64,000 bases of DNA from Aurantiacibacter sp. D1-12 (lineage in GTDB: Bacteria; Pseudomonadota; Alphaproteobacteria; Sphingomonadales; Sphingomonadaceae): NCBI RefSeq assembly GCF_028858515.1, contig NZ_JAPJZJ010000003.1, positions 495,001-559,000 of the forward strand. Reading direction: 5' to 3'. Position 1 is the first letter of the stretch. Each line of letters begins with the position of its first letter. The position numbers and the translations under genes were made by a program. Below are positions 233 to 32,542 of the stretch, one piece after another. A model generated the notes under the pieces. It had not been told where the DNA came from, searched no databases, and was given only the letters and a program-made list of their open reading frames with translations.

Positions 233-854
233 CCGTATTCTCTACAGCTTCCGCCGCTGCCCCTACGCGATGCGCGCCCGCATGGCGCTCGTCATCAGCA
301 AGAGCCGCTGCGAGCTGCGCGAGGTGAAGCTTTCCGACAAGCCACAGGCAATGCTCGATGTCTCACCTAAGGCCACCGTGCCCGTGCTGGTGCACAGTGA
401 TGGTGCGTTTCTGGAAGAAAGCCTCGACATTATACGTTGGGCTCTCGGCCACACCGACCCCGAAGGCTGGCTGGAGCGCGAGGACAAAGAACTGATCGCC
501 GAGAATGATGGTCCGTTCAAACACGCGCTCGACCACTACAAATACCCGACGCGTTATGATGACTGCGATCCAATGCCCCACCGCGACCGCGGAGAAGAGT
601 TCCTGCGCAAACTCGACGCACGGATCGCTGGGCAGGGTCAACTGTGCGGTGACAAACGCGGCTTGACCGACGTGGCGATATTCCCGTTCATCCGCCAGTT
701 CGCCAACCACGACCGCGCCTGGTTCGATGCGCTCGACCTGCCGCATGTGCAGCAATGGCTGGCGGGGCACTTGGAAAGCGACCTGTTCAAAACCGCGATG
801 CAACGCGAAAAGCCATGGCAGGAAGGCGATGCGCCCATTGCCATGGCTTTGTGA
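225..854 (+). CDS. glutathione S-transferase family protein
   Basis: A 209-residue protein. It opens MSDRILYSFRRCPYAMRARM, a glutaredoxin-like CPYA motif at residues 12-15 in a thioredoxin-fold N-terminal domain. The cis-Pro segment KATVPVLV and the glutathione-contacting EES follow at about residues 49-66. The rest is an all-helical GST C-terminal domain containing LTDVAIFPFIRQF. The start at 225 is chosen because it overlaps the upstream stop by 8 bp; the longer frame from 168 would add residues that only shadow the upstream gene. A substrate cannot be deduced. Confidence 0.85.
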   Translation: MSDRILYSFRRCPYAMRARMALVISKSRCELREVKLSDKPQAMLDVSPKATVPVLVHSDGAFLEESLDIIRWALGHTDPEGWLEREDKELIAENDGPFKHALDHYKYPTRYDDCDPMPHRDRGEEFLRKLDARIAGQGQLCGDKRGLTDVAIFPFIRQFANHDRAWFDALDLPHVQQWLAGHLESDLFKTAMQREKPWQEGDAPIAMAL

Positions 855-5754: not shown

Positions 5755-6306
5755 ATGAATCGCATCGCGTCTCCGGGGCAATTGCGCGCCAGCCTGATCC
5801 GCTGGTCCCTGTTTCTTGTGCCGCTGGTGATGTTGCTGGGCTTCCTCGCCGGAACCGTGGGCGGCGATGCCAACAGCGCGTGGTTCCAGTCGCTCGACAA
5901 GCCGACCACTTTCCCGCCGCCCGCGACGTTCGGGATCGTCTGGACGATCCTCTATGCGATGATGGGCCTTGCCTTCGCGATGGTCTGCGCAGCCTGGGGA
6001 TCGCGCATGCGGACATGGGCCATTGTTGCGTTCCTGATCCAGTTCGCGATCAACCTTGCATGGTCGCCGGTCTTCTTCGGCCAGCAGCAGATCACAAGCG
6101 CGCTGTTCGTAATCCTTGCGCTGGACGTTGCGTTGATTGCGACGATCTATCTGTTCTTCCAGGTGCGCAAATGGGCCGGGATCCTGCTGCTACCCTATCT
6201 GGCCTGGGCCCTGTTCGCGACGCTTCTCAACTGGCAGTTCCTGCAGCTCAATCCCGATGCCCAGCCGATGGAAGATGACGGCGCCGTGCAGAGTTTTGAA
6301 ATTTAA
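5755..6306 (+). CDS. TspO/MBR family membrane protein
   Basis: A 183-residue five-helix membrane protein of the tryptophan-rich sensory protein family. The signature run is SLDKPTTFPPPATFGIVWTI, followed by LYAMMGLAFAMV, INLAWSPVFF and a C-terminal LAWALFATLLNWQFLQLN. Alphaproteobacterial TspO proteins sit in the outer membrane and bind tetrapyrroles; in Rhodobacter they affect pigment gene expression. The N terminus is about 20 residues longer than the shortest homologues. It is in line with ubiK but separated from it by 36 bp. Confidence 0.9.
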   Translation: MNRIASPGQLRASLIRWSLFLVPLVMLLGFLAGTVGGDANSAWFQSLDKPTTFPPPATFGIVWTILYAMMGLAFAMVCAAWGSRMRTWAIVAFLIQFAINLAWSPVFFGQQQITSALFVILALDVALIATIYLFFQVRKWAGILLLPYLAWALFATLLNWQFLQLNPDAQPMEDDGAVQSFEI

Positions 6307-6342
6307 GTTGCACAGAGGGGGCTGACCGCCCACATTCTCACC

Positions 6343-6588
6343 ATGCAAAGCGAAAACAAGATCATCGCCGATTTCGTCAAAGTCGCCAATTCCGCTGCGG
6401 GTACGCTGGCGGGAATGGGCCGTGAAGCGCGGGAGAACGCGCGCGAGAAGATGAAAGAGGCGATGGGCGGCATGGATTTCGTCTCCCGCGAAGAATTTGA
6501 CGCGGTGAAAGACATGGCTGCAACCGCGCGCGAAAAGATAGAGATCCTCGAAGCAAAGCTCGCCGCGCTGGAAGCCAAGATCAAGTAA
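6343..6588 (+). CDS. UbiK/BMFP-family accessory factor
   Basis: An 81-residue, highly charged helical protein. The N-terminal half carries NKIIADFVKVANSAAGTL; the C-terminal half is a coiled coil (EEFDAVKDMAATAREKIEIL, then EAKLAALEAKIK), the arrangement of UbiK/BMFP proteins. In gamma-proteobacteria UbiK assists the ubiquinone biosynthesis complex and binds lipids; the alphaproteobacterial role is less well defined. Confidence 0.8.
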   Translation: MQSENKIIADFVKVANSAAGTLAGMGREARENAREKMKEAMGGMDFVSREEFDAVKDMAATAREKIEILEAKLAALEAKIK

Positions 6589-22529: not shown

Positions 22530-23402
22530 TCACCGGCTCAGATGGCTGATAAATTCCCGTGTTGCTACGTTCAGGTCGGCGTTGCGCGGCCAAACGACGT
22601 AGATGCCCAAGCTACGATCAGACCACTCGGGCAGGATGCGTACTAGCTTTCCATCATCGAGAAGTGGCTTGACCTCGTAATAGGGCAGTGTCGCTACGCC
22701 TAATCCTTCCACAGCCAAGCCGCATACAGAATTCACCGAATCCGCCAGAGCAACTGTCTTGCCCCAAATTAGCTCTGCAGCCGGTTTGCCTTTGGACAAT
22801 TCGATGCCGTCAGGGACAGCCGAGAAGCTGATAAAGTCCCACTGCTTGAGATCATCGGGACTCTTGGGTGCGGGCTTGCTCGCCACATATTCCGGGGAAG
22901 CGATAACCACGCGGTCATCTTGCGATATACGTTTCATTTTCAGGTCTGAATCGGTCATCGCGCCCATCCGGACCGCCACATCATAACCCTTACGCAACAT
23001 GTTCTGCTGGATGTCCGATGACATCAAATTCAGGCGAACGCCCGTGTGGTTTTTGGCGAAATCTGTGATCCTGGAGAAAATCGGGTTCGAAACAAGGGTG
23101 TCAGGAATGGCGACGCGAAGATCGGTAAGCTGTTCCGGTGCGTGCGATCCAAAAAGTTCGAGTCCGTCTCGCGCGGTTGTGACCATCTTCTTCGCTATCT
23201 CATAGAGCCTGACGCCTTCTCGTGTAAGCGACTGTGCTCGCGTGGAGCGGTAGAGCAAAGGAGCGCCAATCTGTTGCTCAAGAGTCTTGACGTGCAGGCT
23301 CACAACCGACGGCGAAATCAGGAGCTTCTTCGCCGCGCCGCGGAAGGATTTTTCGTCCACTACGCTCACGAAGATCGCCATGGATTTTAGCTGATCTATC
23401 AC
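22530..23402 (-). CDS. LysR-family transcriptional regulator
   Basis: A 290-residue regulator with an N-terminal HTH (IDQLKSMAIFVSVVDEKSFR, then GAAKKLLISPSVVSLHVKTL) and an effector domain containing DLRVAIPDTLVSNPIFSRIT and GLGVATLPYYEVKPLLDDG, as in the AaeR/CrgA-like group. The GTG start keeps the full MIDQLKSMAIF beginning and has a GGGA-type ribosome-binding site; an ATG 21 bp inside is an alternative. It diverges from a three-gene operon across a 107-bp gap that holds a long palindrome, the classical LysR layout. Confidence 0.88.
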   Translation of the reverse strand: MIDQLKSMAIFVSVVDEKSFRGAAKKLLISPSVVSLHVKTLEQQIGAPLLYRSTRAQSLTREGVRLYEIAKKMVTTARDGLELFGSHAPEQLTDLRVAIPDTLVSNPIFSRITDFAKNHTGVRLNLMSSDIQQNMLRKGYDVAVRMGAMTDSDLKMKRISQDDRVVIASPEYVASKPAPKSPDDLKQWDFISFSAVPDGIELSKGKPAAELIWGKTVALADSVNSVCGLAVEGLGVATLPYYEVKPLLDDGKLVRILPEWSDRSLGIYVVWPRNADLNVATREFISHLSR

Positions 23403-23419
23403 TTCTTATCCCTTTTGTT

Positions 23420-23451
23420 CGATATTTCGAACAATATTCTTCGAAATATCG
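23420..23451. promoter_or_regulatory. paired inverted repeat in the LysR divergent promoter region
   Basis: CGATATTTCGAA (23420-23431) and TTCGAAATATCG (23440-23451) are exact 12-base inverted arms with an 8-base spacer CAATATTC. Each arm is itself partly palindromic around TTCGAA. Sited 18 bp from the regulator start and 59 bp from the divergent operon, it is the probable LysR binding region. Promoter elements are not resolved. Confidence 0.65.
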
Positions 23452-23509
23452 TATATTCGCCATCGTTACGGAAAGCTAGTGTGCGAACATCACAGCAGAG
23501 GAATTGATC

Positions 23510-24274
23510 ATGACAACCAACACTGAAAAAGCCGTTGCGCTGATCGAAAGCCTGGAAACGGGCGATACCGGTCCAGTCGCTTTCATCAATCCTGACAAGT
23601 ACATTCAACACAATCTCGATGTTGCTGACGGGCTGTCGGGTTTTGGCGCCATTCTTGAAAATGCGCCTCCCGAAGGTTTCAAGGCTGAAGTGGTCCGCGC
23701 CTTTGCGGATGGCGACTATGTGGTGCTCCACACCCGATACGATTTCTTCGGACCGAAAGCAGGATTTGACGTATTCCGCTTCGAGGATGGTCTGATTGTC
23801 GAACATTGGGACAACTTGAGCGAGATGACACCGCCAAACCCGAGTGGTCACACGCAGTTCGATGGGCCAACACAGACTGTCGATCTCGACATGACCGAGG
23901 CGAACAAGGTCATTGTCACGGGGTTCGTAAAGGATGTCCTACAAGGAGGTCAGACGGACAAGCTGACGACATATATCAATCCAAACAATTACGTTCAGCA
24001 CAATTCGAGCATTGCCGATGGCCTTGACGGGTTGGGCGAGGCGCTAGCCTATTTCGCCGAGCAGGGGCTCGTCATGGAATATGACAAGGTTCACAAGGTT
24101 CTAGGGCAAGGGAATTTTGTCCTGACAATGAGCGAAGGTAAATTTGGCAAGGGCGATCACGTTGCCTTCTATGACCTCTTCCGGATTGAAGACGGCCAAA
24201 TCGTTGAACACTGGGATATCATCCAGCCCATTCCAGCACGTTCGGATTGGCAGAATGACAACGGTAAGTTTTGA
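23510..24274 (+). CDS. tandem-duplicated NTF2/SnoaL-like protein
   Basis: A 254-residue cytosolic protein consisting of two copies of an NTF2-like fold. Copy 1 spans about residues 5-110 and has FINPDKYIQHNLDVADGLSG, VVLHTRYDFFG and FRFEDGLIVEHWDNL. Copy 2 spans about 125-245 and has YINPNNYVQHNSSIADGLDG, FVLTMSEGKFG and FRIEDGQIVEHWDII. Such domains are often small-molecule isomerases, hydrolases or cyclases; a SnoaL-type reaction is only inferred. It is the first gene of an operon (spacings 11 and 13 bp) controlled by the divergent LysR gene. The ribosome-binding site is GAGGAA. Confidence 0.8.
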   Translation: MTTNTEKAVALIESLETGDTGPVAFINPDKYIQHNLDVADGLSGFGAILENAPPEGFKAEVVRAFADGDYVVLHTRYDFFGPKAGFDVFRFEDGLIVEHWDNLSEMTPPNPSGHTQFDGPTQTVDLDMTEANKVIVTGFVKDVLQGGQTDKLTTYINPNNYVQHNSSIADGLDGLGEALAYFAEQGLVMEYDKVHKVLGQGNFVLTMSEGKFGKGDHVAFYDLFRIEDGQIVEHWDIIQPIPARSDWQNDNGKF

Positions 24275-24285
24275 GCGGGGGAGAG

Positions 24286-24753
24286 ATGACCAAGCATGGA
24301 GTATCTCTCATCCCTGGCCTGTTGCTCCCCGCCTTTTTGGCGGGGTGCTCAGGTCAGCAAGATGCAGAATTGCAACTAGTAGAAATTCAAACCGAAAAGG
24401 ATGCAGCCATGAGCGATCAAGTCATTGGCAACAGCTTTAAAGTGGATTTTGGGGCTCCTTACATCTTCAGGCTCAATTTTGAATCTGAAACAGCCATGTC
24501 CTTTGTGCAGATTGATGAAAGCGGAAACGAGATTCCTGACGCACTCAAGGGATCGGTTGAAACTACGCGAGTGGAAATCCGCCCCAATGTGTACATGGTC
24601 TATTGGAGCGAACCGTTTAATCGCGACACCAATGTGACGCATGTCCAAGATTTCGAAAATGGTCGGGTCTGGACAAATATCTCGACGCCTGGCGAACCGT
24701 TCGTGAATCTCAATGGGTCGCTGACACTCATTGACGATGCCGCCGCGCAATAG
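24286..24753 (+). CDS. lipoprotein with a MoaF-like domain
   Basis: A 155-residue predicted lipoprotein (lipobox LAGC, Cys at about residue 21). After a short linker the mature part contains VIGNSFKVDFGAPYIFRLNF and YMVYWSEPFNRDTNVTHVQD, consistent with the lipocalin-like MoaF C-terminal family, which includes proteins annotated for molybdenum-cofactor or aromatic-acid contexts. The biochemical role of such proteins is not established. Second gene of the LysR-linked operon. Confidence 0.6.
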   Translation: MTKHGVSLIPGLLLPAFLAGCSGQQDAELQLVEIQTEKDAAMSDQVIGNSFKVDFGAPYIFRLNFESETAMSFVQIDESGNEIPDALKGSVETTRVEIRPNVYMVYWSEPFNRDTNVTHVQDFENGRVWTNISTPGEPFVNLNGSLTLIDDAAAQ

Positions 24754-24766
24754 GGCAGGGCACGCA

Positions 24767-25573
24767 ATGCGTAGCTACCCTGAAACGGTATCAGGCTTTT
24801 ATCTGTCTCATGGCGGTGGTCCCCTTCCGATAATGGGAGATGTGGGCCACCGCGAGATGGTGGAGCACCTGCAGGCAATCGGGAGTCAAGTGCGACGCCC
24901 CTCCTCGATCATTATGATCAGCGCTCATTGGGAGGCAGCGATTATTTCGATCACTTCGGGACAGTCACCCGAGCTCATTTACGATTACGGTGGCTTTCCA
25001 GAGGAAACATATCGTTACCAGTATCCAGCTCCTGGAGACCCTGAGCTGGCTTCCGAAATAGCCCGGTCTCTCGTCCGATCGGGCATTGAATGCAGGCTCG
25101 ATGCCCATCGCGGTTTTGACCACGGCATGTTCGTGCCGCTTATGTTGATGTACCCGGATGCAGATATTCCGTGCGTGCAGGTCTCGCTTGCCAAATCGCT
25201 TGATCCCGCATTGCATCTGGCGCTTGGCAAGGCATTGGCTTTTGCGACTGGCAAGGGTGCAATGATTATTGGCTCCGGATTCTCGTTCCACAATATGCGG
25301 GCGTTTCGAGATTCTGATACTCCGCAATCGCGAGCTCAGAACGAAGCTTTCGAAAGCTGGCTAATCGAAACGTGTTCGAACGGTTTGATAGGAGAGGAAG
25401 AAAGGGCAGAACGACTCAGATCTTGGGAAGAGGCACCGTTCGCACGATATTGTCATCCACGCGAAGAACACCTGTTACCACTGCATGTTTGTTACGGCGC
25501 ATTTGACCGGCCAAGCAGTCAAACCATTGAACTCATGATAATGAACAAGAAGGCCAGCATGTACCTCTGGTAA
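24767..25573 (+). CDS. LigB-type extradiol ring-cleavage dioxygenase (DODA/YgiD family)
   Basis: A 268-residue enzyme. Metal ligands are visible in FYLSHGGGPLPIM (His near the N terminus) and ISAHWEAA. DAHRGFDHGMFVPLMLMYPD, IIGSGFSFHNMRAF and the C-terminal RYCHPREEHLLPLHVCYGAF complete the family pattern. Related enzymes cleave catechol-like rings or DOPA using iron or zinc. The native substrate is unknown; with the NTF2-like and MoaF-like partners it suggests conversion of an aromatic or quinone compound. Third gene of the operon. Confidence 0.88.
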   Translation: MRSYPETVSGFYLSHGGGPLPIMGDVGHREMVEHLQAIGSQVRRPSSIIMISAHWEAAIISITSGQSPELIYDYGGFPEETYRYQYPAPGDPELASEIARSLVRSGIECRLDAHRGFDHGMFVPLMLMYPDADIPCVQVSLAKSLDPALHLALGKALAFATGKGAMIIGSGFSFHNMRAFRDSDTPQSRAQNEAFESWLIETCSNGLIGEEERAERLRSWEEAPFARYCHPREEHLLPLHVCYGAFDRPSSQTIELMIMNKKASMYLW

Positions 25574-28820: not shown

Positions 28821-29477
28821 TCAGCAATCATTCCCCTCACTACCTTCCAACAACCGCTTTGCCGCCGCCTTGCGCTCCATCATCTTGTCGATCTTGGCGT
28901 TGAGGCTGGCGAGCGCTTCGGGGCGGCGGGCGCGCTCCTCGGCGCGGATTTCGGCCTTCACTTCCTCGCGGATGCGCTCGTAGAGTGGGTGCCCCGGCAC
29001 AACGCTCGACAGCGCGGCAGACCCGCCATAGCGCTCCGCACGCCGCTGGCGCAGGAAGAACATCACCAGCGCCTCGTTATGCCGCACCTCGGTGCCGAGC
29101 ACCTTGCCCGAAGAGACGACCATCCGCTCCTCCCCTGCAATCGCGCGGGCGAGCGCGCAGTCCTCCAGCCGCGAAACCCCGCGATCCACCGCTGCCTCCC
29201 ACGCCGCATGAAACTCCTCCGCCCCGGGCCGCAGGCGCAGCTTGTACAGCGCCTCGAGCGAAGCCCCGATATGCCTGGCGGCCTGCCTGACGATGCCGGT
29301 GGCCGCCAGATGCGCGATAAACTTGCGCTGCCGGTCCGCCGTGATGGAATTCTTGCGCGGAGCGACATGCGGGACGGGGGTGAAGGAGAGGAGCGGATCG
29401 TCCTCCGCCAGCGGCTCGGCAGCGGGCGCGGTGACGTAGGAGGTGGCTTGGGCGGGGAGGGCGCGTGTGTTTTTCAT
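28821..29477 (-). CDS. hypothetical helical protein, HTH-like N-terminal half
   Basis: A 218-residue protein not recognised. Residues about 45-105 read TADRQRKFIAHLAATGIVRQ, AARHIGASLEALYKLRLRPG and AEEFHAAWEAAVDRG, a three-helix pattern resembling the DNA-binding start of some phage terminase small subunits and helix-turn-helix proteins. The C-terminal 65 residues are a charged coiled coil (EVKAEIRAEERARRPEALAS, then LNAKIDKMMERKAAAKRLL). GC content is like the chromosome. It lies between the repeats and the lower-GC DUF6119 unit, with a 42-bp gap to the latter and the same direction. Confidence 0.65.
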   Translation of the reverse strand: MKNTRALPAQATSYVTAPAAEPLAEDDPLLSFTPVPHVAPRKNSITADRQRKFIAHLAATGIVRQAARHIGASLEALYKLRLRPGAEEFHAAWEAAVDRGVSRLEDCALARAIAGEERMVVSSGKVLGTEVRHNEALVMFFLRQRRAERYGGSAALSSVVPGHPLYERIREEVKAEIRAEERARRPEALASLNAKIDKMMERKAAAKRLLEGSEGNDC

Positions 29478-29519
29478 GCTCGCGGTTGGAGCAGGGGGTG
29501 AGAGCTGTAGGAAAGTCGA

Positions 29520-29996
29520 TTATCGTTTAGTCCGTGTTTTCACAACGGTCTGATTAAGAATGCGCCGATTGATCTTTCTTTTCCATGATGCCTGACGCTC
29601 AGACAAGGATCGTTTTCGTGCTGTGCTCAAGAGAAATCGATATTCATCTTCACCAAAGAGAAAGCCTCGCTCCCATGCATATTCGATCACGGCGATATTT
29701 GGATTGGCTTCGGGGTCATTGGATATGCGTTTCAACCCATCAAACAGCGTACCCGTGTCGATTCCAATAAATCGATTTATGCAAACATTTCCAACGTATG
29801 TTTTGGACCCCGTCAGCTTGTTTTCGATATAGCAGTGCTCTTTGATGTCTTGTCCGCAAGGACAGGTATCCCATTCTTCGGAGATTTCTACCGCGACAAG
29901 ATTCCACTCGGTCTTCGCGACATCAAAAATGCCCGCTTGTGACAGCGGAAGAATATGAGCTTTCAACCTTTCAAAGTTATGTGACACACTAATCAC
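29520..29996 (-). CDS. Cys-cluster protein paired with a DUF6119-type protein
   Basis: A 158-residue protein not assigned to a named family. Four cysteines at residues 45, 47, 55 and 72 (WDTCPCGQDIKEHCYIENKL, then GSKTYVGNVCINRF) form a probable zinc site of the CPCGxxI/GNxCI kind seen in several phage and mobile-element proteins. The rest is helical, ending in a strongly basic tail (RKRSLSERQASWKRKINRRI). Its ATG overlaps the upstream gene's stop by 8 bp, so the two proteins are likely made together. The sequence appears noticeably AT-richer than the flanking chromosome, suggesting transfer. Function unknown; nucleic acid binding is inferred. Confidence 0.65.
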   Translation of the reverse strand: MISVSHNFERLKAHILPLSQAGIFDVAKTEWNLVAVEISEEWDTCPCGQDIKEHCYIENKLTGSKTYVGNVCINRFIGIDTGTLFDGLKRISNDPEANPNIAVIEYAWERGFLFGEDEYRFLLSTARKRSLSERQASWKRKINRRILNQTVVKTRTKR

Positions 29997-31707
29997 CAGC
30001 GCCTGTTTCGACTTTGAGAAAGGCGATACCAGATTGGAATTTGCGGTCTTTCGTCAGGAAGCGATGTGTTTTAACAAGCTCATACCGTGCCATAAATGGC
30101 AGGTCGCCAACGCCCAAGGCAGGTTTAGTATGCAGAATACAAAACAGCACGCAGAAATTCTGCTCTTCAACTTCTTCGCGAGTCTCCGGTATGAGATCCA
30201 GGAAAGTTTGCTTTAGCTTTCCTTGGTTCCATTCTCGCTCGTCTTCTCCCAGCCAGCGGCGCATGTCCGCACAAGTGTTCTGATCACTCGTAAACGCATG
30301 CGCGTAGAAGCGTGCCTGTAGAAAAAGATGGCTAATTGAAGCCGAGCCCGAAGAGTATCGCTTCGCTTGGACCAGATCACCGCCAAGCGAAAAAAGGTCA
30401 CAAACTTCGTATTGTGCTCGTCCTGCGATCAATATGTTAGCCTGGTCGAAGCAGTATACATTCTCATTGTCGACTGCCGTTTTCCGACAGAAGATTGCCT
30501 CACGGTTCTTACGTGAAACAGGGTCAAAAATATTTATGTCGTTAACAAGATAATCACGTTCACAGATATCGATTTCCTCTTCGATATAGGAGGAGATTTC
30601 ATCGACCAGCTCTTGAGAGACTTCACGCCACCTTCCCCCAGACAGCACGAATGTGCGTCCCTCCCAGTCCACCTCCGCAACCAAACATTTGTATGCATTT
30701 GAGAATTTTCCAAGATAATCTCGGTCGGGATCATATCGATAGATTGGCCAGCCTTTGAGGCGATCGGCAGTAAGGTCTGCCATGCGACGCCGAGGTTGAT
30801 TTACTAGATCATCGATCCGCAAATCCTCATACAACGGTGGCAATCCAGCTTCGCCACGAGGCTTGTAGGCAAACAGAGGGTCATCGCCTTCAATGAATTC
30901 TGGGGGAGCCAGATGGATCCTCGAGAAATCTCTTTCTTCGATGGTTGCCGCGACGATATTGTCAAGCCTTTGAATGACTTCCGGATCGTTTTCGAGTCGA
31001 AAACGGTCAAAGTCACGAAAATCAGTGTTTTCGTATTCTCGTGATAGGTATCTCGTTTCGAGGATGTCCAAGTATCGTGAGAGTGTAGGCCATTCCAATT
31101 TGCTTTCCCGCGGCAAAAGAAAGCTCAGCTGGTCTTTCCCTCTGATATTCTCAATTTGATCTCTAAACTCACCTTTGGCGATGCCGGACAATGTCCTGAT
31201 ATTTTCGGCATCTAGATCAACTGCAAATCCACCCAATGTTGTTCCGGCCGACGATTGTCGCTCCGTTTGGAGACTGATAGCTTCATGTGCGGCTGTCTGG
31301 AGGCGCTTGATTCCACCTTCGCTATCGCAGATATTCATTCCAACTCTCAAACCGAAATCATGGACGATCTTCTCCTTATCGAGGGGCTGATCAGCATGCA
31401 TACCGAAGACCAAAGCATATCGCCTAACTTCATCTTCCAAATTACGTTGGAGGAGCACGAGCGCTCTGGGAAAACTGTTGAACGATTCAAATTCGAACGG
31501 GTCATCTGGGAGTCCGGAGTTGATAAAATTCAACCAAGGTACCTGTTCAGCGTTCTTTCTTGAGCGAATTACATCGAACCACACCCAAACCGAGAGACCG
31601 TCGATATCCGGGATTGTCTTGAAGGCATTTGGAAAGCCATCAACTGCATCTTCAAAATCGATGCCGTCTTTTATGCGAAAGACTGTCGCTTTGCGTTGAT
31701 CTGCCAT
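29989..31707 (-). CDS. DUF6119 / TIGR04141-type sporadically distributed protein
   Basis: A 572-residue protein resembling the DUF6119 (TIGR04141) family, which is scattered across bacteria and known mainly from genome neighbourhoods. The N-terminal half is alpha/beta with no motif I can name. In the C-terminal half, residues about 434-470 read YEVCDLFSLGGDL, then VQAKRYSSGSASISHLFLQA. This gives Asp437 and a Gln447-x-Lys449 element similar to PD-(D/E)xK nucleases, followed by the SxSHLFxQ run I associate with this family. The composition is AT-richer than the chromosome and an inverted repeat lies upstream. Nuclease or defence function is inferred. Confidence 0.7.
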   Translation of the reverse strand: MADQRKATVFRIKDGIDFEDAVDGFPNAFKTIPDIDGLSVWVWFDVIRSRKNAEQVPWLNFINSGLPDDPFEFESFNSFPRALVLLQRNLEDEVRRYALVFGMHADQPLDKEKIVHDFGLRVGMNICDSEGGIKRLQTAAHEAISLQTERQSSAGTTLGGFAVDLDAENIRTLSGIAKGEFRDQIENIRGKDQLSFLLPRESKLEWPTLSRYLDILETRYLSREYENTDFRDFDRFRLENDPEVIQRLDNIVAATIEERDFSRIHLAPPEFIEGDDPLFAYKPRGEAGLPPLYEDLRIDDLVNQPRRRMADLTADRLKGWPIYRYDPDRDYLGKFSNAYKCLVAEVDWEGRTFVLSGGRWREVSQELVDEISSYIEEEIDICERDYLVNDINIFDPVSRKNREAIFCRKTAVDNENVYCFDQANILIAGRAQYEVCDLFSLGGDLVQAKRYSSGSASISHLFLQARFYAHAFTSDQNTCADMRRWLGEDEREWNQGKLKQTFLDLIPETREEVEEQNFCVLFCILHTKPALGVGDLPFMARYELVKTHRFLTKDRKFQSGIAFLKVETGAGD

Positions 31708-31743
31708 ATATTCAATCCCATACCTTCAATACTTTATACGTCC

Positions 31744-31784
31744 ATTTTGCACTTTCGCCACTAGAGACTTTCTTAGTGCAAAAT
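31744..31784. promoter_or_regulatory. 10-base inverted repeat upstream of the DUF6119 gene
   Basis: ATTTTGCACT (31744-31753) and AGTGCAAAAT (31775-31784) are perfect arms separated by 21 bases, 37 bp upstream of the DUF6119 start. It could be an operator for that unit or the edge of an inserted segment; no matching copy is seen at the other end of the island. Confidence 0.4.
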
Positions 31785-31893
31785 GATGGGTGCTTGACCC
31801 CACCACCAATCCCCCCTAAGTGCGCGCCCATTCGTGGCTCTCCTTCGGGAATCGCTGCGGGTAGATAGAGCTGAACATTGCCGGTTTTGTCCC

Positions 31894-31927
31894 GGGCTCC
31901 TCGGCATTCATGCGAGGGGCTCTTTTC
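31894..31927 (+). terminator. intrinsic-terminator-like hairpin in the gap before rpsL
   Basis: GGGCTCCTCG and CGAGGGGCTC pair as 10 bases with two G-U wobbles around a 9-base loop and are followed by TTTTCT on the plus strand. No plus-strand gene ends here, so it may close an unannotated small transcript or insulate rpsL. The rest of the 463-base gap (31708-32170) holds the inverted repeat, several short GC-rich hairpins and repeat copy C; no protein gene or clear sigma-70 promoter is seen. Confidence 0.45.
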
Positions 31928-32084
31928 TATTGGGGCGGTTGATGCGTTTATAGCATTTGGCCGCTCGGGGCGGCCGCCAAAGTAACCCGGTGCTCGAAAG
32001 CGTCGAGTGGAGAGTTCAAGCTCGTCAGAGCGCAGCCCTCGCGCAAGCGGGGGTCTCGTGCCTCTCGCTCCGCGCTTGCGGACT

Positions 32085-32111
32085 GCGATCCCAGCTTTCG
32101 CTGGGATGACG
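32085..32111 (-). repeat. 27-bp palindromic repeat, copy C
   Basis: Matches 27 bases of copy B at 11895-11922, including the palindromic core TCCCAGCTTTCGCTGGGA. Here it is solitary, 59 bp upstream of the rpsL start, inside the likely promoter or leader region of the str operon. Confidence 0.75.
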
Positions 32112-32170
32112 GCTTTCAGAACATTCCATCCGGCGCTGGTAGCATCATCGTAACACGGTGAAGAGTAAAT

Positions 32171-32542
32171 ATGCCGACTATTAACCAGCTGGTGCGCAAG
32201 CCGCGCAAGCCGATTGTCAAGAAGAGCAAGTCTGCTGCCATGCAGTCCGCTCCGCAGAAGCGTGGTGTTTGCACCCGCGTCTACACGACGACCCCGAAGA
32301 AGCCGAACTCGGCACTGCGCAAGGTTGCGAAGATCCGTCTGACCAACCAGCGTGAAATCATCGCCTATATCCCGGGCGAGGGTCACAACCTCCAGGAACA
32401 CTCCGTGGTGCTGATCCGCGGCGGCCGTGTGCGCGACCTTCCCGGTGTGCGCTACCACGTGCTGCGCGGCGTGCTCGACACGCAGGGTGTGAAGGACCGC
32501 AAGCAGAGCCGTTCGAAGTACGGCGCCAAGCGGCCCAAATGA
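32171..32542 (+). CDS. rpsL: 30S ribosomal protein S12
   Basis: A 123-residue decoding-centre protein. The two loops touching the A site are [20 protein letters not shown] (Lys43/Lys44 region conserved) and [17 protein letters not shown]. Residue 88 is Arg where E. coli and most bacteria have Lys; Lys-to-Arg at this position is a classical streptomycin-resistance change. [18 protein letters not shown] and the SKYGAKRPK end are standard. First gene of the str operon. The ribosome-binding site is AAGAG. Confidence 0.97.

Follow-up and report, generated by a model that had tools for sequence, protein, structure and literature searches.

A DUF6119 gene and a small cysteine-protein gene form the cargo of a variable slot beside rpsL in Aurantiacibacter sp. 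D1-12: a candidate exchangeable anti-phage unit

The window analysed here, a stretch of 64,000 nucleotides (nt) of the Aurantiacibacter sp. D1-12 genome (contig NZ_JAPJZJ010000003.1, positions 495,001 to 559,000), carries two adjoining genes that are the whole cargo of a variable slot beside the ribosomal protein gene rpsL (Table 1). One encodes a protein of the DUF6119/TIGR04141 family, the other a small protein with four cysteines, here called the Cys protein. An earlier note, made from the sequence alone, described two overlapping open reading frames (ORFs), and this description stands. The overlap, calculated from the ORF coordinates, may allow translational coupling. In P0018 and similar Cys homologues the protein starts about three codons downstream of GTG 29996, so translation may begin at the following GTG (29987) instead, one base past the DUF6119 stop; the genes abut with either start. 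The composition is AT-richer than that of the flanks, as had been noticed, with a GC content of 0.486 in the two 1-kb bins of 30001-32000 and of 0.57-0.66 in the adjoining bins. Each protein has one match in its own genome.

Table 1. Genes, slot borders and predicted domain at the rpsL-adjacent locus (window coordinates; aa, amino acids)
Feature	Position	Strand	Remarks
DUF6119/TIGR04141 protein gene	29989..31707	-	572 aa, ATG start
Cys protein gene	29520..29996	-	158 aa, start GTG 29996 or GTG 29987
DUF6119/Cys gene overlap	29989..29996	-	8 nt; possible translational coupling
Predicted nuclease-like C-terminal domain of DUF6119 protein	residues ~374-572		E403, D437, K449, H460, Q464
Variable segment	29516..31792		between conserved left end (~29488-29515) and sharp right end (31793)
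p218, left border of slot	28821..29477	-	218 aa, conserved in genus
rpsL promoter-like start (CTTGACC) and leader, right border of slot	31793..32170	+	conserved in genus
rpsL (S12), right flank	32171..32542	+	first gene of str operon

Membership of the larger protein in DUF6119/TIGR04141, suggested earlier from short residue runs, is certain from profile searches: matches were full-length and far above the curated cut-offs, both for PF19614 in Pfam (E 5.1e-91, 306.3 bits against 27, residues 8-563) and for TIGR04141 in NCBIfam (E 7.7e-76, 255.6 bits against 35). DUF6119 was the only Pfam family, and no PADLOC model, matched at E<=1. The gene occurs in 8 of 118 relatives, this genome included. 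Its C-terminal half is weakly predicted to be a PD-(D/E)xK-like nuclease, so that the nuclease-like effector proposed in the earlier note keeps a nuclease-like domain at that strength. The Asp, QxK and SxSHLFxQ elements on which that proposal drew are present. Among 63 aligned DUF6119 sequences, the window's own included, D437 is kept in 62, K449 in 61, and H460 and Q464 in all. The position before xK, read as Gln in the earlier note, is His in 54 sequences, Gln in 8 and Arg in 1.

The Cys protein has a CxCG motif, then C55 and C72, and ends in a basic helix and tail. The four cysteines and basic tail reported earlier were confirmed, C45, C47, C55 and C72 being invariant in 70/70 aligned sequences, and from this pattern the protein is probably zinc-binding, a putative zinc ribbon. 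It matched nothing in Pfam, NCBIfam or PADLOC at E<=1. Its structure model is confident (predicted local distance difference test score, pLDDT, 90.5) and gave a single Foldseek match at E<=0.001, an iridovirus protein that is itself uncharacterised (E 1.3e-4, TM 0.41); the next matches, at 1e-3 to 5e-3, were to proteins of phages, a pithovirus and poxviruses.

The family is rare, yet widely spread. Of 1,084 candidate proteins, 1,070 match it at E<=0.001, and the 120 matches listed all have at least 66% identity. A protein of about 155 aa keeps roughly 60-70% identity across Alpha-, Beta- and Gammaproteobacteria and Cyanobacteria, with a Nitrospira relative by listed protein name only. A second branch, about 40% identical, is found in Rhizobium, Stappiaceae, Hyphomonas and others, and distant relatives sit on plasmids of Klebsiella, Providencia and related bacteria. 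Relatives occur in 84 plasmid records, 78 predicted to be conjugative (68 of the 84 are below 60% identity, and many are near-copies). A search of 50,697 phage records gave no match, and neither did one of IMG/VR with exact peptide patterns, which detect close relatives only. Had every close relative carried the pair at ordinary composition, this would have spoken against the earlier note; in fact the Cys gene was found in 1 of 118 relatives, 3 of 398 genomes phylum-wide and 3 of 385 class-wide, this genome being counted each time. The closest relatives of both proteins are on metagenome contigs. As Cys ORFs are 123-171 aa in 28 other P0002-type loci, the protein is not fused. A relative on a Providencia plasmid (L040:5977-6870) has 297 aa and, by eye, about three repeats of a C-terminal helical motif. 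The Cys genes of L021 and L023 (~6001-6470) were matched in two or three pieces and are probably broken.

The slot lies between p218, which has no Pfam, NCBIfam or PADLOC match at E<=1, and the str operon, whose genes we take from their sequences to be rpsL, rpsG, fusA and tuf. Among 40 same-genus genomes, this one included, rpsL was matched in 38 and p218 in 39, though p218 has distant paralogues and some of its matches may not be the flank gene. Both flanks lie close together on one contig in 29 other same-genus genomes (L068-L096), 1.6-4.7 kb apart (mostly 2-3.5; 2.7 kb in the window), and in none of these 29 does the slot hold the DUF6119 or the Cys gene. Six further genomes (L097-L102) have no p218 beside rpsL within the stretch compared, and L103 ends at a contig edge. 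When the gap was compared by blastn with 20 relatives, only the slot ends aligned; 19 gave a match, 12 of them starting exactly at gap position 2316, which is 31793. The variable segment is thus the Cys gene, the DUF6119 gene and the region upstream of the latter. It contains no integrase gene and is flanked by no direct repeat of at least 14 nt. Cargo may be exchanged by recombination in the conserved flanks.

Slot ORFs differ from genome to genome in the 29 relatives, except for a LuxR-type set and, distantly alike, two reverse transcriptases and two HATPases; some ORFs may be spurious, and the shortest gap (L092) has small ORFs only. We scanned the main cargo of 18 of the 29 slots, and of L103, which lacks p218, against Pfam, and 42 slot ORFs against PADLOC (first 25 of 233 families listed). 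Reverse transcriptases occupy L070 (RVT_1, just under the Pfam cut-off) and L093, and two of the 42 ORFs match the Drt6 and Drt4 models (best E 1e-147 and 1e-130). The slot of L072 encodes AAA_21 and DUF4435, and is PARIS-like by its best PDB relative, AriA (8e-14 over ~100 residues). Other slots hold SEFIR/TIR (L096), a C5 methylase (L095), AIPR (L080), SLFN_AlbA_2 (L089), PRTase-CE (L090), a KAP NTPase (L073), HATPases (L071, under the Pfam cut-off, and L086) and a weak GmrSD_N, under the cut-off (L083); the contig-limited stretch of L103 has an AAA_15 ATPase.

Several slots weigh against reading this site as a place for defence genes. That of L069 holds a LuxR-type regulator, with related ORFs in L074, L079 and L084, that of L076 a 5'-nucleotidase and that of L075 a DUF3037 protein. 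L078 and L082 gave sub-threshold Pfam matches only, and the cargo of L068 had no Pfam match and a weak one to PADLOC PDC-M36A (7e-10). By our own grading the 18 scanned slots comprise 5 with clear, 3 with probable and 4 with possible defence cargo, and 6 without evidence of it. Some LuxR-type slots add a small protein and a 171-218-aa protein, relatives of which occur in L086 and L091; this set is perhaps older slot content.

The pairing was the feature that the earlier note most wanted examined. Profiles from 70 Cys and 63 DUF6119 proteins were run on the translated open stretches of all neighbourhoods (loci of 4.4-14 kb, metagenome contigs excluded), and as a positive control recovered the locus's own gene in 35/35 Cys and 9/9 DUF6119 loci. 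DUF6119 was in none of the 35 other Cys loci (among which L047 repeats L011) and the Cys gene in none of the nine other DUF6119 loci; neither was in 36 slot-region loci or 20 random windows. That the Cys protein is a regular partner of DUF6119 is not supported, its gene lying instead beside many unrelated defence systems, and the idea of a dedicated pair gives way to two independently mobile, defence-linked genes that met in a cargo slot.

Gabija lies near the Cys gene in three loci (L006, L010, L021). A same-strand ImmA/IrrE (capP-like) gene lies upstream in L004, L005, L007, L008, L011, L018 and L024 and on plasmids L035 and L036; it is preceded by a helix-turn-helix gene wherever annotated and, counting from the most upstream plausible Cys start, is spaced by no more than 45 nt in 7/9 loci. 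A capP-like gene is the sole defence-type neighbour in L003, L005 and L024. There is a CBASS cyclase in L008, with similar loci in L007, L011 and L036, and ubiquitin-like, E1/JAB and DUF6527 genes lie upstream in L009 and on plasmid L034, with a related operon in L020. Other neighbours are SIR2-HerA (L002), GmrSD (L022), AlbA with type I R (L025), PDC-S28 (L016) and a 1910-aa ATPase, weakly Avs1b-like (L023), while Shedu adjoins a second-branch Cys gene on plasmid L038. For L012, L013, L014, L015, L017 and L019 no defence neighbour was named, not every neighbour having been scanned singly. At L013:4528-6462 a phage major-capsid-like gene (PDB match Phi92_gp124, 1e-11) precedes the Cys gene, which is possibly a prophage-borne copy.

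Against PADLOC models, 106 neighbouring ORFs from 22 loci matched 174 families at E<=1e-20 (25 listed), compared with one family, once, for 106 control ORFs from 20 random windows; these are counts of overlapping families, not of proteins. The capP model was matched by eight neighbouring proteins. The sample was 22 of the 24 genome Cys loci, L008 and L011 being left out as near-copies of L007, with at most the five nearest ORFs of at least 150 aa per locus; the control ORFs were 106 of 115, to equalise numbers, from windows that were not species-matched. ORFs were picked longest-first and not by a trained gene finder, so both sets include some false ones. On a tree of 33 Cys proteins (L021 and L023 left out, partner labels assigned by hand, bootstrap unsettled) partner types change 17 times, against a minimum of 10 and a shuffled mean of 18.9 (as low in 23/200), so exchange of partners has been frequent. 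The capP label alone, however, is clustered (5 changes against a shuffled mean of 8.0; as low in 5/500), an effect to which near-copies in rhizobia contribute. The Cys family stands apart, has been transferred widely and in many cases adjoins unrelated defence systems.

DUF6119 has defence links of its own, lying within type I restriction operons in three of the nine other loci. In L053 and L054 it stands in a run that resembles an operon, together with genes for HsdR, a type I methylase and a protein the size of HsdS (PDB matches in L054: methylase 9e-99, HsdR 1e-30), and four of its five neighbours are 93-99% identical between the two loci. L051 has a similar arrangement (HsdR PDB match 2e-36). 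The neighbour in L056 resembles a C5 methylase by eye, and of two plasmid copies one (L041) has no evident partner and the other (L042) is near an AAA ATPase. DUF6119 is most likely a nuclease-type effector usable inside restriction systems or alone. The mobile, possibly anti-phage nature suggested in the earlier note is supported both by these operons and by the turnover of the slot, the unit being accessory, horizontally acquired and probably anti-phage. L053 and L054 come from same-genus genomes; their HsdS-sized proteins are only 31% identical, the rest being near-identical, and the operon also holds an extra 340-344-aa protein and a 251-aa protein.

Two further features of the window may be mentioned. 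Within the rpsL leader a 22-nt block, AGATAGAGCTGAACATTGCCGG (31863-31884), recurs with at most three changes in 29/29 relatives, in many of which a terminator-like hairpin and T-run follow. No Rfam family matched the leader region; the str operon may have here a leader RNA or an attenuator. A second AT-richer stretch, with a milder dip (GC 0.51-0.52), lies at 23000-25000 and encodes, by eye, a LysR-type regulator, a SnoaL-like 256-aa protein and an extradiol-dioxygenase-like 280-aa protein.

We found no description of DUF6119 in the literature searched. The window's protein shares the full-length profile of this 'sporadically distributed protein' (PF19614), and its gene lies outside a restriction operon and next to a Cys gene. 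Defence islands use integration hotspots with fixed flanks and variable defence cargo. The rpsL slot is similar in both respects, but is small, ends at the rpsL promoter, and in the window has neither an integrase gene nor flanking direct repeats of the length given above. The slot and the promiscuous Cys family are apparently new, as we found no description of either in the literature searched.

Three published systems bear comparison. Hachiman pairs HamA, a DUF1837 nuclease, with HamB, a helicase (PMC12278908). The pair studied here was rejected as a member: no HamA (DUF1837) profile appeared among the Pfam and PADLOC results, and no HamB helicase among the two genes of the segment or its flanks, p218 and rpsL. 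Compared with the D-E(X)K motif described for Hachiman, DUF6119 has Gln or His at the Glu position, and it has an extra N-terminal half. Like the nuclease-protease pairs that unrelated immune systems are described as acquiring repeatedly (PMC12799240), the Cys protein is an accessory joined again and again to such systems; unlike those described, it matches no nuclease or protease profile and is unfused. CapH-CapP is described as releasing immune operons once CapP binds single-stranded DNA (PMC13373217). The frequent ImmA/IrrE neighbour of the Cys gene is likely a component of CapH-CapP. The Cys gene resembles these controllers in being a small module beside diverse immune operons, often directly downstream of a capP-like gene, and differs in that its product matches no regulator profile and also occurs without capP nearby.

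We put at about even the reading in which the two genes form a compact and exchangeable unit against phages, with a nuclease-like DUF6119 effector and a promiscuous Cys immune accessory. The N-terminal half of DUF6119 would sense or bind, and its PD-(D/E)xK-like half would attack the DNA (or RNA) of infected cells. The Cys protein, a putative zinc ribbon with a basic tail, would have been attached to DUF6119 as it has been to Gabija, CBASS-regulator, ubiquitin-like and restriction systems, and, through binding to nucleic acid or to the effector, would most likely tune or license the system next to it. By analogy with the single-stranded DNA binding of its frequent neighbour CapP, a role in binding nucleic acid would fit. 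It is somewhat unlikely, though the strongest of the alternatives, that DUF6119 works alone and that the Cys gene, self-sufficient in defence or stress and unrelated to DUF6119, came to lie next to it in the slot. Each gene does without the other at every other locus searched, and the Cys gene keeps company with many different systems and, in L013, with a phage-like capsid gene. The two are nonetheless the sole cargo of the slot, on one strand with ends overlapping or abutting, and the tight spacing of capP-like and Cys genes suggests that the Cys gene can be coupled to a neighbour.

It seems improbable that the Cys gene lies outside immunity and serves counter-defence or a mobile element instead. 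Its plasmid-borne relatives, mostly predicted to be conjugative, and the viral Foldseek matches would suit such a gene, but the phage records and IMG/VR yielded no match within the scope given, and in many loci the gene lies downstream of immune genes or regulators on the same strand. A toxin-antitoxin pair, in which the Cys protein would be the antitoxin to DUF6119 as a toxic nuclease, is more improbable still. Antitoxins normally track their toxin, and here neither gene tracks the other, while the Cys family lies beside Gabija, capP/CBASS and ubiquitin-like operons.

Beyond the preferred reading of the pair as an exchangeable anti-phage unit, we tentatively suggest, at rather less than even confidence, that the Cys protein is the first member of a novel class of promiscuous accessories in immunity. 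This would be a small zinc protein whose fold locally resembles that of uncharacterised proteins from phages and giant viruses; it would pass on its own from one anti-phage system to another, unrelated one and contribute one shared step to all, such as nucleic-acid sensing or effector restraint. Accessories that recur across unrelated immune systems point to common steps, for which the Cys protein is a convenient test case. Through the rpsL slot compact defence units can be collected simply, the cargo of unknown function in dozens of relatives being a list of candidates. For DUF6119, a large family that is still unexplained, there are now two separate connections to defence.
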